From contig JAICBP010000076.1 in the NCBI GenBank assembly GCA_021766785.1, positions 24,189-60,645 on the forward strand: 36,457 nucleotides of DNA, in the 5' to 3' direction. The stretch is from Sulfurimonas sp. endosymbiont of Alviniconcha boucheti. GTDB taxonomy: Bacteria > Campylobacterota > Campylobacteria > Campylobacterales > Sulfurimonadaceae. A model generated the notes under the pieces. The model was given only the letters and a program-made list of their open reading frames with translations. It had not been told where the DNA came from and did not search any database. Of the stretch, positions 18,266 to 24,236 are shown piece by piece. Within the stretch, counting starts at the first letter, position 1; each line of letters opens with the position of its first letter. Both the position numbers and the translations under genes were made by a program.

Positions 18266-19273
18266 TTAGCTCTCTTTGCGAAAACGTATCATCTTAAATC
18301 GCTCTCCTAAAAAATCAGGAAGAATAAGTATCTTTGCCTTTTCAAGTTCCTGTTTATAAATCTTCTCATCAACATTTTCTTTAAGCATCTCTAAAAGATC
18401 TAACATCCCCATATCTATAAGTGCTACCATCTGAGCTTTTAGTTCTACAAAAGTCACTCCTGCTTCTTCATAAGCATCTTTGACATGAGCAAAAGTTACA
18501 TCATAAGTAATATCACTCTTAGCAAAAAGCTCTTTTCGTGGCTGGAACTCTTTATGATCCTTTGGAATGAAAAATGGAATAACTTTATGCTTTGTATAAA
18601 TACGAAGTGAGAAGTCTGGACGAGCGGTCATCTCTCCATAATCAAAGCTCATAAACTCAAACTTCTTAGCAGCATTTGCCATCTCAAGCGCGAACTCTTC
18701 ATAGCCAAGTGCTATCTCCCCTCGATCTTTAGCATACTTCTTTGCCTTTTGATCTACCCAAACATCATCAACATCAAACGCTACATGATGCGTTGTAACA
18801 CTTGCTGTTTTACCCTTAAAGTAGAGTTCACAAGGAAAAGCATCAAAGATCTCATTTGCTATAAAAAAAGCATTTTTACACTGAAGTTGCTTAAGAGATT
18901 TGTAATGAGTTAGTTGAACAGTATCACCGAAACTCTCTTTAAAGTAACAAGCCTGTTGTCTCTGCAAGTTATCAAATCTTTCGATAATAACAAAGTTAAG
19001 GCTTTTTAAAAGTTTAGGTCGTAAAGTATAGAGAAACTCACAAATATCTGCTAAAAAGTAACCATGGTGTGCACCTATCTCACAGATAGTGGCATTGGCT
19101 TCTAAAAAATTTTCATCTATTAAAGAGATTATATGTTTTGCAATAGTTCCACCAAAAAATTTACTTGTACTTACTGCAGTATAGAAGTCACCCTCTTTTC
19201 CAATACTTTTGTAAGTCGCATAGTAACCATCTTCACCATAGAGCCACTCTGTCAGATACTCACTAAACTTCAA
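18266..19273 (-). CDS. MidA/NDUFAF7-type SAM-dependent methyltransferase (COG1565)
   Basis: A 335-residue protein that begins MKFSEYLTEWLYGEDGYYATYKSIGKEGDFYTAVSTSKFFGG in two conserved blocks, as COG1565 proteins do. ICEIGAHHGYFLADICEFL is the SAM-binding glycine-rich loop, here with His-His in place of the common Gly-Arg, and FIANEIFDAFPCE follows. The eukaryotic homologue NDUFAF7 dimethylates an arginine of complex I. In bacteria the substrate is not established. It starts two bases after the TolC-family gene stops, so it is the last gene of that cluster. Confidence 0.85.
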   Translation of the reverse strand: MKFSEYLTEWLYGEDGYYATYKSIGKEGDFYTAVSTSKFFGGTIAKHIISLIDENFLEANATICEIGAHHGYFLADICEFLYTLRPKLLKSLNFVIIERFDNLQRQQACYFKESFGDTVQLTHYKSLKQLQCKNAFFIANEIFDAFPCELYFKGKTASVTTHHVAFDVDDVWVDQKAKKYAKDRGEIALGYEEFALEMANAAKKFEFMSFDYGEMTARPDFSLRIYTKHKVIPFFIPKDHKEFQPRKELFAKSDITYDVTFAHVKDAYEEAGVTFVELKAQMVALIDMGMLDLLEMLKENVDEKIYKQELEKAKILILPDFLGERFKMIRFRKES

Positions 19274-19275
19274 AT

Positions 19276-20505
19276 CTATTTTCCTTCCTCAACATACATT
19301 TCATAAAGATTAAGTAGCTCTAACTGTTTATCTATTTCATAGATTTGAGTATCTAACTCTTGAATTTTTAGGGAGTTGCTTAGTGTCTCTACATCATATT
19401 CTGTTTTATAACCAGCTTTAAAAAGTCTTTTTGTATCTGTTAAGAGTTTTGAGTAAAGCTCTATATTTTCTTTGCTAAGGGTTATTTTTTTATCAAAGTT
19501 TTCTATATTTTTTAGTACCTGTTCAAAAAGAGCTGTAAACTCTCTTTTTCTATCTTCTGCTACTACTCTTGCTTTTAAGAAGTCTATTTTTGCAGACTCT
19601 ATATCTCGAAAGGCATTAAAATCTAGTGGTATATTGATACGGATTCCATAGTCATAATATTGCGAATCATTTGTAGAGGTTTGAATGTTTGACTTAAATT
19701 TAAACTGCTGTTCGGAGTTATTCCAATTATATCCTGCTGTAAAACTTACACGAGGAAGATATTTTGCAATTCTTACATTTTTTGCATAAAGATTTTTTTC
19801 TATTAGAGCATCTGTCTGTTTAAGGACAATATTATGCTTTAAAAACTTTTTTGCACTGATATATTCTAAATGTGGAATAGTCGCATGCTTATAATCAAGA
19901 TCACTTAATGTTGTAAAATGATTAATAAGTCTCTCCTCTGCTGTTTGCATATCATAGAGTGCTTGAATAAGAATATTTCTTTGAATAATGGCATTATCTA
20001 AAAATCCAGAGTCAAGTTGTCCATTTAAATATTGCTCTTTTTTTTGTGCAAGATTAATTTCTGCATTTTTTATCTGTAGATTTTGTGCCTTTATGCGTAA
20101 CTCTTGTTGTTTTATCTGCATAAGCAGTGCTATAGTCTCTTTAATCATTTTGCGTCTTGCGACATCTATTGTGTAGTCAGAGTAGAGTTTGCTAGCATTT
20201 GCAAACTTAATCCCATAGTAGATACCACCACCTTGAAAAATAGGCTGATTTATACGAATAGTAGCACTTTGGCTCTTTAACTCATCATCATAAGGTTTAT
20301 TTTTTATATAGCTATAATTGAATTGTAGTGGTGCTATCCAAGAGTCACGAAGCTTTGAACTCTCTGCTTCATTTTTTTCATACTCATATCTAAACTGCTT
20401 CTGCTTTAAACCAGAGATATAAGAGTCTAAAGTATTATCCTCATTAGCATATGTTAACGTATTAAACGCGAGACATAGCAGAGTAAAGAGCTTTAAAGCC
20501 TTCAT
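19276..20505 (-). CDS. TolC-family outer-membrane channel
   Basis: A 409-residue outer-membrane efflux protein. The signal peptide (MKALKLFTLLCLAFNTLTYA) is followed by a mature protein with the long paired helices of the family (residues about 110-200 and 290-400) and strand segments such as PLQFNYSYIKN and RVSFTAGYNWN. Its start is well supported by GAGGA six bases upstream and by the signal peptide. This means its first 44 bases overlap the end of the upstream argD-type sequence in another frame. A HlyD-like adaptor is two genes upstream. No inner-membrane pump is encoded in the window. Confidence 0.86.
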   Translation of the reverse strand: MKALKLFTLLCLAFNTLTYANEDNTLDSYISGLKQKQFRYEYEKNEAESSKLRDSWIAPLQFNYSYIKNKPYDDELKSQSATIRINQPIFQGGGIYYGIKFANASKLYSDYTIDVARRKMIKETIALLMQIKQQELRIKAQNLQIKNAEINLAQKKEQYLNGQLDSGFLDNAIIQRNILIQALYDMQTAEERLINHFTTLSDLDYKHATIPHLEYISAKKFLKHNIVLKQTDALIEKNLYAKNVRIAKYLPRVSFTAGYNWNNSEQQFKFKSNIQTSTNDSQYYDYGIRINIPLDFNAFRDIESAKIDFLKARVVAEDRKREFTALFEQVLKNIENFDKKITLSKENIELYSKLLTDTKRLFKAGYKTEYDVETLSNSLKIQELDTQIYEIDKQLELLNLYEMYVEEGK

Positions 20506-23449
20506 CGATTTCCTCTTTTGTTATAGTGAGTGGTGGTAAAAATCTTAGTGTATCTCTTCCCGCTTTAAGAACCATTGCTCCACTCTCTTTGGCGTTTACT
20601 ATGATAGAAGAGAGAGTTTTTGTATCTTTAACGCGAAGTCCACACATCATACCTATACCTACTTTAGCAGTAAACTGCTCTTGATGATCTTCATAAAACT
20701 TTTCTAGTGCTTGATTAAAATAGAGAGATATTTTCTCTAGTGTACCACTCTGTTTTAACTCATTTAAAATCTCTACTACAGAGCAGACCGCTGTAGAGCT
20801 AAGATAGTTACCGCCAAAAGTAGAACCATGATCACCAGCAGAGAGTACATTTTTAAGTGAAGTCATCACAATCCCTACAGGTACACCACCTCCAATACCT
20901 TTAGCAAGGGTAATGATCTCTGGAGTTATACCATAGAGTTGCGATGCTGTAAACTCTCCAGTTCTATATCCACCAGTTTGAACTTCATCTACTATGAGAG
21001 GAATATTTTGTAATTTAAGCAGTCTCTCAAGTGCTTGTACTTGTGCTTTATCTTGAGGTTCAACACCACCTTCACCTTGAATAAGCTCTATCATAACTGC
21101 TGCGGTATGATCATCAAGAAGAGCTTCAATAGCCTCTATATTCTCTGCATAAACAAAACCATCTGGAAATGGACCGAAATAGTTATGCATCGCTTCTTGT
21201 CCAGTAGCTTTTACAGTGGTAATTGTTCTTCCATGAAAAGAGTGTTTTAGCGTGATGATTTTGTAGCGTTTGATCTCACCATCGCGTTCACCATGCTTTC
21301 TAGCAATCTTTATAGCACCTTCATTTGCTTCAGCTCCACTATTTCCAAAGAAACATGCCATATCATAGCCACTAGCTTTTGCAACTGCTTCTGCTGCTTT
21401 AGCTTGTGGTGCGATATTATAAAGGTTTGAGATGTGTGTAATATTTGATATTTGTTCACATATAGCTCTGTTTACTCTCTTGTTAGCATGTCCAACACTC
21501 ACAACCCCAATACCTGATGTAAAATCAATATACTTCTTCCCACTACTATCCGTTAAAGTCGCATTTGTTCCACTAACAAACTCAACATTATCGCGTCCAT
21601 AAGTTTGAAGTAGATACTTTTTATCTAACTCTTCTATGTTCATTATCTCTCCTCTTTGTACTCTCTCTTTTTTTGCTTGTATTGTAACTTTTTCTTCTTG
21701 ATAAACAGCACTATCTCCTTCCCAAGAAATTTCCGATGATGTCAAATTATTAACACCTTTTGTTCCACTGTATATTAAGAGTGTATCGAGTCGTAAAGTA
21801 TCTTTATGTTTTACAACAAGAGTAACACTTCCTACTGAACTACTCACTACAATACTTTCGCCCTCATTATAGCCCAAATCACTATGGATATAAACAAACG
21901 CTTCACGTTTAAACTGAGAGTTAAGACTTGTAGTACTTTTTGGTGTTATAAGGTAGAGTTCCTTACTTTTTTTTCTCTGTTTATCTCTATTTTTTGTTAG
22001 AACTATTTTATTTATAGATCTATCGATTTCTATCTCTTCAAGAAAAACAAACATATTATCATCTGTATCAAATCCATTTTTATAAGGGAGATCCTCTCTA
22101 GCACTCACAATAAGGCTTCCATCATCACTTTTATGGCTAAAACTTTTAAAATGCTCTATATACTCTTGTTCAGGTTTGAGTTGTATTTTATACTCTTTGC
22201 ATAAAAAGGATGTAAGATCATACTCACTAATTCCTATTTCACTCTCCTGTAATTTTGGCATCTCTATCATCGCATTATGCCCATAAGAGGTACGAATATC
22301 ATTTTTTTCTAAAAATGTTTTTGCTGGTATAACTAGGTCTGCTCTTTGGCTTGTAACATTTTCATAGAGTCCAAAATAAATAACATTTTGTATATGCTTC
22401 ATTGCATTGTAAGCTCTCTGTGCATTTGGCATTTGCTCTAGTGGATTTGCCCCTTGAATAAACAGAGTTTTAAACTCATTAAACTTAGTATTTACTTTTG
22501 AGACTCTTTTTGCTTCTGTTATAAAGGGTGTTGTTATTCCCTCTTTTGAGTCACCAAGATAAGCTACCCCACACCCTTCTTTGCCAAAGAGACCAAGAGT
22601 GACCACTATTGCATCTATGGCTCGGAGAATATCTGCACCATCTTTATACTTTTGAATACCTACACCACAAACAAACGCCACTCTTTTATTTTCAATATGT
22701 GCTAAAATAGTACCAACCTGACCCAGAGTCACTCCCATGTTCTCAAGCATAGATTTGATCCGAATTGTCTGAGTAAGTTCATAAAAATCTTCATATTCAT
22801 TTGCATACTTTTCTAAATACTCATAGTCACAACTACTGTTAATATGTAAAAAACGAGTTAATATCATTGCAAGATATAAGTCTGTATGTGGTTTAATCTG
22901 TAAATGAATATCTGCCATTTGTGCTATTTCTGTTTTGATAGGATCTATTACAATAATAGTTTTATTTTTTACAAGAGGCAAAAGATGACTTGAAGTTGTA
23001 TGAGGGTTGCGTCCCCAGAAGATTATGACCTCACTTTTTGCTATCTCAGAAAGAGGCATATTCTTATTGGATCCTCGTCCTTTGATAATACCAGCTTCAC
23101 CTGCTCCATCACAAAGGCTTCCGTTTGTCAAAGTTGCCCCTACTTGAGCAAAAAAATGATCAGTCACCTCTTGCATAAGTCCAAAGTTGCCACTTCCTCT
23201 ATAGAGCAGTGTCTCACTCTTATCATTTGTATCTAAAAGCTCTTTTAGTTTACTAAGAGCCTCTTGCATACTTATAGATATGCCTTTATACCTTGGTTTT
23301 GTAATGCGATCATACTCTCCAAAATGGTTCATATGTGGACATAAAAATCCCTGTGTATGTCCACTACTTTTTCCCTTTAATGCAAAATTTTTATACTCTA
23401 TTTCACAAGCATCAAAACAATCAAGAGGACATGCAGTAGTTTTACTCAT
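20462..23449 (-). CDS. argD: Molybdopterin oxidoreductase fused in frame to ArgD-type aminotransferase
   Basis: A single 995-codon frame with two complete enzymes. Residues 1-602 resemble the formate dehydrogenase/YoaE class of molybdenum-bis-MGD oxidoreductases. It has a [4Fe-4S] motif C7-x3-C11-x3-C15-x21-C37, then VIIFWGRNPHTTSSHLLP, DPIKTEIAQMADIHLQIKPHTDL and GSLCDGAGEAGI, where the Cys may ligate molybdenum. Residues 603-995 are a full-length class III aminotransferase of the acetylornithine type: FFGNSGAEANEGAIK, HSFHGRT, IVDEVQTG and PLP-lysine K850 in TLAKGIGGG. The ATG at 21641-21643 is preceded by GAGGAGA. ArgD could therefore be made from an internal start, and the joined frame may be a fusion or a lost stop. 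It overlaps the HlyD-like gene by eight bases. Confidence 0.85.
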   Translation of the reverse strand: MSKTTACPLDCFDACEIEYKNFALKGKSSGHTQGFLCPHMNHFGEYDRITKPRYKGISISMQEALSKLKELLDTNDKSETLLYRGSGNFGLMQEVTDHFFAQVGATLTNGSLCDGAGEAGIIKGRGSNKNMPLSEIAKSEVIIFWGRNPHTTSSHLLPLVKNKTIIVIDPIKTEIAQMADIHLQIKPHTDLYLAMILTRFLHINSSCDYEYLEKYANEYEDFYELTQTIRIKSMLENMGVTLGQVGTILAHIENKRVAFVCGVGIQKYKDGADILRAIDAIVVTLGLFGKEGCGVAYLGDSKEGITTPFITEAKRVSKVNTKFNEFKTLFIQGANPLEQMPNAQRAYNAMKHIQNVIYFGLYENVTSQRADLVIPAKTFLEKNDIRTSYGHNAMIEMPKLQESEIGISEYDLTSFLCKEYKIQLKPEQEYIEHFKSFSHKSDDGSLIVSAREDLPYKNGFDTDDNMFVFLEEIEIDRSINKIVLTKNRDKQRKKSKELYLITPKSTTSLNSQFKREAFVYIHSDLGYNEGESIVVSSSVGSVTLVVKHKDTLRLDTLLIYSGTKGVNNLTSSEISWEGDSAVYQEEKVTIQAKKERVQRGEIMNIEELDKKYLLQTYGRDNVEFVSGTNATLTDSSGKKYIDFTSGIGVVSVGHANKRVNRAICEQISNITHISNLYNIAPQAKAAEAVAKASGYDMACFFGNSGAEANEGAIKIARKHGERDGEIKRYKIITLKHSFHGRTITTVKATGQEAMHNYFGPFPDGFVYAENIEAIEALLDDHTAAVMIELIQGEGGVEPQDKAQVQALERLLKLQNIPLIVDEVQTGGYRTGEFTASQLYGITPEIITLAKGIGGGVPVGIVMTSLKNVLSAGDHGSTFGGNYLSSTAVCSVVEILNELKQSGTLEKISLYFNQALEKFYEDHQEQFTAKVGIGMMCGLRVKDTKTLSSIIVNAKESGAMVLKAGRDTLRFLPPLTITKEEIDEGFKALYSAMSRV

Positions 23450-24236
23450 CTTTTAACTCTATTTTCACAAGTTGTGAGAATATTTTAGGAGCTTTTATAA
23501 TAATTTGTGCTTTATATTTAGAAATATTTTTATTATCAGCAACATTTAAAAGTCTGTTTATGTGATAAGATGTTTTTTTGTTATCTATATATACTATCTT
23601 CTCTTTTGCATGTAAAAGATCTTCTTTATTCAAATAAATAGTAAGTATCGCTCTATGTTCATCTACTAAAGTAGCTAAAGGTGTCCCTTTATTGACAACT
23701 TCACCAACTTTAACTTTAAGTGAATAGAGTTTAAAGCCTTTTGCTTTGAGGTTTTTATCTTGTAAGCTACGTTCTAATTTTACTTTTTTAAACTTTAGAT
23801 CTGCTATCTGATTTTTTAGAGTATTAATCTCTTTTTCAATATTTAGAGCCGCATTTTTACTATTAATAAGCTCATAAAATTCTCTATCTTTCTCAATGCT
23901 TGACTTGATTTTTAACTTTTTAACTCTTTCATAATTTAGGTGTTTTTTTTCTAAACTCTCTCGTAAGTTTTTCAAAATATTTTTATCTACTTCTACTGTA
24001 TTTTTTAGATAAGCTATTTTTTTATTTACAACAAGCAACTCTTCTCTATCAAGTTCCGAATCTATGACAATATAAGAGCTGTTTTTAAGTGTTTGACCTA
24101 TCAGATTTTCATTTGCTAATATGACAACACCAAGAACATTGGAAGAGATATTACGTGTTTCATAAGGTGCAACTTTTGAGTAATAAATAGTTGCATGAAG
24201 TGATAATGCTATAAGAAGAGTAAGTAATATTTTCAT
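23442..24236 (-). CDS. HlyD-family periplasmic adaptor
   Basis: A 264-residue protein with a signal peptide (MKILLTLLIALSLHA) and the layout of membrane-fusion adaptors. A short biotinyl-lipoyl strand (ISSNVLGVVILANENLIGQTLKN) leads into a long coiled-coil hairpin at about 75-165, rich in Lys/Glu/Leu, and then the second lipoyl half (GEVVNKGTPLATLVDEHRAIL). It is shorter than typical adaptors. Adaptors link inner-membrane pumps to TolC channels, and a TolC-family gene lies two genes downstream. The pump itself is missing here. Confidence 0.8.
   Translation of the reverse strand: MKILLTLLIALSLHATIYYSKVAPYETRNISSNVLGVVILANENLIGQTLKNSSYIVIDSELDREELLVVNKKIAYLKNTVEVDKNILKNLRESLEKKHLNYERVKKLKIKSSIEKDREFYELINSKNAALNIEKEINTLKNQIADLKFKKVKLERSLQDKNLKAKGFKLYSLKVKVGEVVNKGTPLATLVDEHRAILTIYLNKEDLLHAKEKIVYIDNKKTSYHINRLLNVADNKNISKYKAQIIIKAPKIFSQLVKIELKDE

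Follow-up and report, generated by a model that had tools for sequence, protein, structure and literature searches.

The window, the whole stretch of 36,457 nucleotides of Sulfurimonas DNA analysed here, carries on its reverse strand an open frame of 995 codons in which a molybdopterin oxidoreductase gene (MoOR) is followed, with no stop, by an argD-like aminotransferase gene. The features of the locus, all on the reverse strand, are as follows, in the order in which they are transcribed.

23442-24236, reverse strand: HlyD-like gene, a conserved neighbour, upstream of MoOR and overlapping its start
20462-23449, reverse strand: MoOR-ArgD open frame, 995 aa, ATG start, stop-free
21644-23449, reverse strand: molybdopterin oxidoreductase (MoOR) part, residues 1-602
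21646-21690, reverse strand: junction (variable tail of MoOR), shorter by net 2 nt than its counterpart in the two nearest species
21668-21674, reverse strand: A7 tract, candidate place of the indel, in a divergent stretch
21649-21654, reverse strand: GAGGAG ribosome-binding site serving argD, 5 nt upstream of its ATG
21643-21645, reverse strand: out-of-frame TAA overlapping the argD ATG (TAATG), read after a one-base shift
21641-21643, reverse strand: internal ATG of argD itself
20462-21643, reverse strand: argD-like class III aminotransferase part, residues 603-995 plus stop
19276-20505, reverse strand: TolC-like outer membrane efflux gene, a conserved neighbour, overlapping the argD 3' end by 44 nt

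The long stop-free frame, the full ribosome site before the ArgD ATG and the TAA that a one-base shift would place across that ATG had all been described in a first-pass annotation of this DNA, and each is present at the coordinates listed.

Between positions 18266 and 24236, argD lies within a cluster conserved in Campylobacterales that comprises HlyD-like, MoOR, ArgD, TolC-like and methyltransferase genes. The window has this gene order, followed by PilT, in common with G101 and G041, its two nearest species. In the window, no inner-membrane pump gene was apparent beside the HlyD/TolC pair. At its 3' end argD overlaps the TolC-like gene by 44 nt (20462-20505), out of frame and in the signal-peptide region at the start of that gene; the same overlap is present in both sister species and at many other loci.

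The position of MoOR is less constant. Nine loci (L044, L045, L046, L052, L055, L068, L069, L071 and L073) keep the HlyD, ArgD and TolC-like genes without MoOR between HlyD and ArgD, and MoOR is therefore an optional member of the cluster. At seven others (L092, L029, L042, L065, L083, L084 and L085), MoOR and argD are separated by roughly 0.7-2.5 kb of additional DNA, and MoOR is found more than 100 nt away from argD in some relatives. Since several relatives lack MoOR in the cluster or have it far from argD, the two need not cooperate.

Identity of the Two Halves

Both halves had been described as intact and as carrying their motifs, which agrees with the Pfam domains, the invariant cysteine set and the lysine K850 found here. 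The Pfam Molybdopterin domain was matched by residues 109-391 with 79.9 bits, above the gathering score of 24, and Molydop_binding by residues 514-575 with 22 bits, below the cut-off of 26.8 (E 1.7e-4). Residues C7, C11, C15, C37 and C113 were invariant in a 12-row alignment; the first four we take to be the N-terminal 4Fe-4S ligands. The MoOR body is conserved to about residue 592, and the tail beyond it is variable. MoOR scored below the equivalog cut-offs for both Fdh-alpha (98.3 versus 666 bits) and NasC (119.7 versus 1100 bits), and for this reason it was not assigned a substrate.

The aminotransferase half matched Pfam Aminotran_3 over residues 625-991 with 292.9 bits against a gathering score of 30.5, and its best matches were ArgD models and solved acetylornithine aminotransferases. 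Its match to the subfamily model TIGR00707 covered positions 1-379 of 381 at 392-395 bits, below the curated cut-off of 410.05. K850, the PLP-binding lysine of an LAKG motif, was invariant in the 12-row alignment. Within the genome this half matches ArgD best and is the only argD-like gene found; from sequence and neighbours, the two other matches read as BioA-like and HemL-like. Given the score below the TIGR00707 cut-off, the half is named ArgD-like rather than ArgD, a name that rests on best match and synteny, with the activity a predicted one.

Because both halves are conserved genes, a chance open frame is excluded. Comparison with the sister species indicates that each half is under purifying selection (dN 0.12 and dS 1.1 for MoOR; dN 0.06 and dS 0.63-0.75 for ArgD). 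A genuine fusion would likewise leave both halves intact.

The Joined Frame among Relatives

Genomes of the genus and of the order were surveyed as sets containing one genome per species. Among the matches listed from 135 Sulfurimonas genomes, the stop-free MoOR-ArgD frame occurred in the window's genome (G000) alone; a second joined frame was not found among the matches listed from 399 Campylobacterales genomes, nor was joining common to more than one lineage seen among the listed matches of the two sets. A stop separated the genes in 60 of 61 distinct junctions. These comprised 31 with a gap of 0-60 nt, 9 with a 4-nt ATGA overlap, 11 with an overlap of 5-20 nt and 9 with the genes further apart; the single joined case was the window. 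Relatives picked for their large open-frame lengths in the genus search, G086, G070, G009 and G059 among them, were rejected as further fusions, there being a stop after MoOR at about 580-600 aa. The titles and abstract openings that a literature search brought up contained nothing specific on a MoOR/argD pair in Sulfurimonas.

This distribution bears on whether the frame encodes a selected bifunctional MoOR-ArgD fusion enzyme, an explanation that we regard as highly improbable. An uninterrupted frame whose two halves are intact and conserved is what such an enzyme would have, and confidence in a structure prediction of the joined chain was low at the junction, as might be seen for a flexible linker, although the whole model was weak (pLDDT 66.7, pTM 0.41) and is too poor to judge the chain or to back a fusion. 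In the alignment supplied to that model, the read-through rows came from relatives in which MoOR and argD are by chance in the same frame. Against a fusion enzyme stand its confinement to one genome among the matches listed, the several relatives whose cluster lacks MoOR or has it far from argD, and the retention by argD of a ribosome site of its own. A metabolic link between the MoOR and ArgD activities was not found. The first-pass annotation had offered either a real fusion or a small change that removed a stop; the second option is the one favoured by these data, the first being without support across any lineage.

Sequence of the Junction

The first-pass annotation had named, as what would refute a fusion, relatives with an extra or missing base near 21650 that gives separate ORFs; both sister species are net 2 nt longer there than the window and have separate ORFs. 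Their MoOR and ArgD proteins are 80 and 89% identical, respectively, to those of the window. In both, MoOR ends ...VTIQ(L/S)EKEIET(K/E)EENL, after which a TGA overlaps the argD ATG (ATGA). The window reads ...VTIQAKKERVQRGEI-MNIEE. The difference in length lies in the interval from VTIQ to the AAAGAGG box (AGAAGAGG in one sister species). Read in the next frame (frame 1), the window's tail becomes KREYKEER, followed by the TAA that overlaps the ATG; the KEE of the sisters is recovered there as YKEER plus stop. In the window's open frame, the conserved ribosome-site box is translated in a frame other than that of the sisters. This restoration of KEE points to a short indel within the variable tail as the cause of the altered frame.

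Both the difference in length and the open frame are features of the window's assembly; that they stem from a true mutation is inferred. Divergence of the tail is too great for one unique alignment, and the indel is accordingly given as a net change, with the A7 tract, where the sister species carry only A5, as a candidate place. The ribosome site of argD is predicted to pair more strongly with the 16S end in the window (-9.3 kcal/mol) than in the sisters (-5.9 kcal/mol), values obtained with the standard anti-Shine-Dalgarno sequence, not one read from the window's genome.

The A7 tract also invites an explanation by slippage, ribosomal or transcriptional, which would yield a mix of fused and terminated MoOR in the manner of programmed frameshifting. 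In frame, GCA AAA AAA GAG does present an A AAA AAA run, and a stop lies within about 23 codons in both other frames. The tract is merely A5 in both sisters, however, A7/T7 runs are frequent in the genome (1.08 per kb) and a conserved frameshift context was not found, and of the explanations weighed here slippage is the least credible.

Quality of the Assembly

An assembly or sequencing error would mean that the true base count differs, perhaps within the A7 tract, and that the genes overlap as they do in the sisters. The join is confined to one genome, among the matches listed, and lies at a homopolymer; moreover, the GeneTack survey (PMC3711429) names indel mutation or sequencing error as the main source of singleton frame transitions. 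To set against this, 397 kb of the window's genome, of which about 357 kb were readable and some stretches masked, were compared with 1.2 Mb of a complete relative, and a genuine frameshift was absent from about 129 orthologous frames (39,554 aa, about 119 kb coding). Among the ORFs of the window's genome, MoOR-ArgD alone spanned two frames of the complete relative. One frameshift candidate, C79:48658-48991, was rejected because it looks like an ORF antisense to a real gene.

A7/T7 runs are, in addition, common in this genome, at about one per kb, and the tail differs by substitutions too. With MoOR dS at about 1.1, an indel in the unconstrained tail would be expected from divergence alone. 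As no genuine frameshift was seen in the other frames, a real lineage-specific indel appears well above an error in likelihood, and the latter is considered unlikely. Of the two ways of losing the stop proposed in the first-pass annotation, a small recent change and a sequencing error, error is the less likely.

Discussion

The locus is probably best explained by a lineage-specific indel of net -2 nt that accidentally joined two operon genes which function separately, with ArgD initiating by itself. As a rule, the cluster neighbours MoOR and argD meet at a stop and start that overlap or lie close together. A small indel in the unconstrained MoOR tail, net -2 nt and thus equivalent to +1 modulo 3, would have brought the two genes into one frame here, leaving the overlapping stop unread. 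Since argD keeps GAGGAG with stronger predicted pairing, ArgD is expected to begin at its own ATG as before, giving a free protein of ~43 kDa. As no stop separates MoOR and ArgD, a readthrough chain is expected wherever MoOR is translated: ribosomes would run on into ArgD, and we infer that MoOR would then be present only as a MoOR-ArgD chain of ~110 kDa.

That this species-specific chain is truly made, as the sole form of MoOR and as a very young fusion derived from an overlapping operon pair, is a tentative proposal and somewhat doubtful. If it is true, a redox enzyme and an enzyme of arginine synthesis are physically tied, and a fusion has been caught at its origin. If the indel is real, it shows that one small event of this kind can turn an overlapping operon pair into a single frame with the ribosome site of the downstream gene left in place, which could plausibly be how a gene fusion begins. 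A full-length two-domain frame whose junction falls in a variable tail, and whose relatives have stops there, should not be taken as evidence for a bifunctional enzyme.

Both halves can be compared with known proteins. MoOR resembles the DMSO-reductase superfamily (formate dehydrogenase-like; PDB 7bkb and 1aa6) in its Molybdopterin domain and N-terminal cysteine motif, but is shorter, lacks an equivalog score and is joined C-terminally to ArgD. The C-terminal half matches acetylornithine aminotransferase ArgD over its full length (PDB 2ord, 2e54 and 3nx3; E 8e-81 for 2ord), to which the frame predicted here adds MoOR as an N-terminal extension.

The 4-nt overlap of MoOR and argD in the sister species, with the ribosome site inside the upstream gene, is like that of ATGA-overlap coupled pairs, and termination-reinitiation coupling at such overlaps has been tested in other gene pairs (PMC6728339). 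By analogy, the sisters' overlap would allow coupling of this kind between MoOR and argD. In the window, by contrast, the stop is out of frame; termination coupling is consequently impossible, and argD would be translated either from its own ribosome site or by readthrough. The window is also comparable to the singletons of the GeneTack survey (PMC3711429), being found in a single genome, without conservation, with a small indel at a gene boundary; it differs from them in that its transition joins two genes instead of breaking one.
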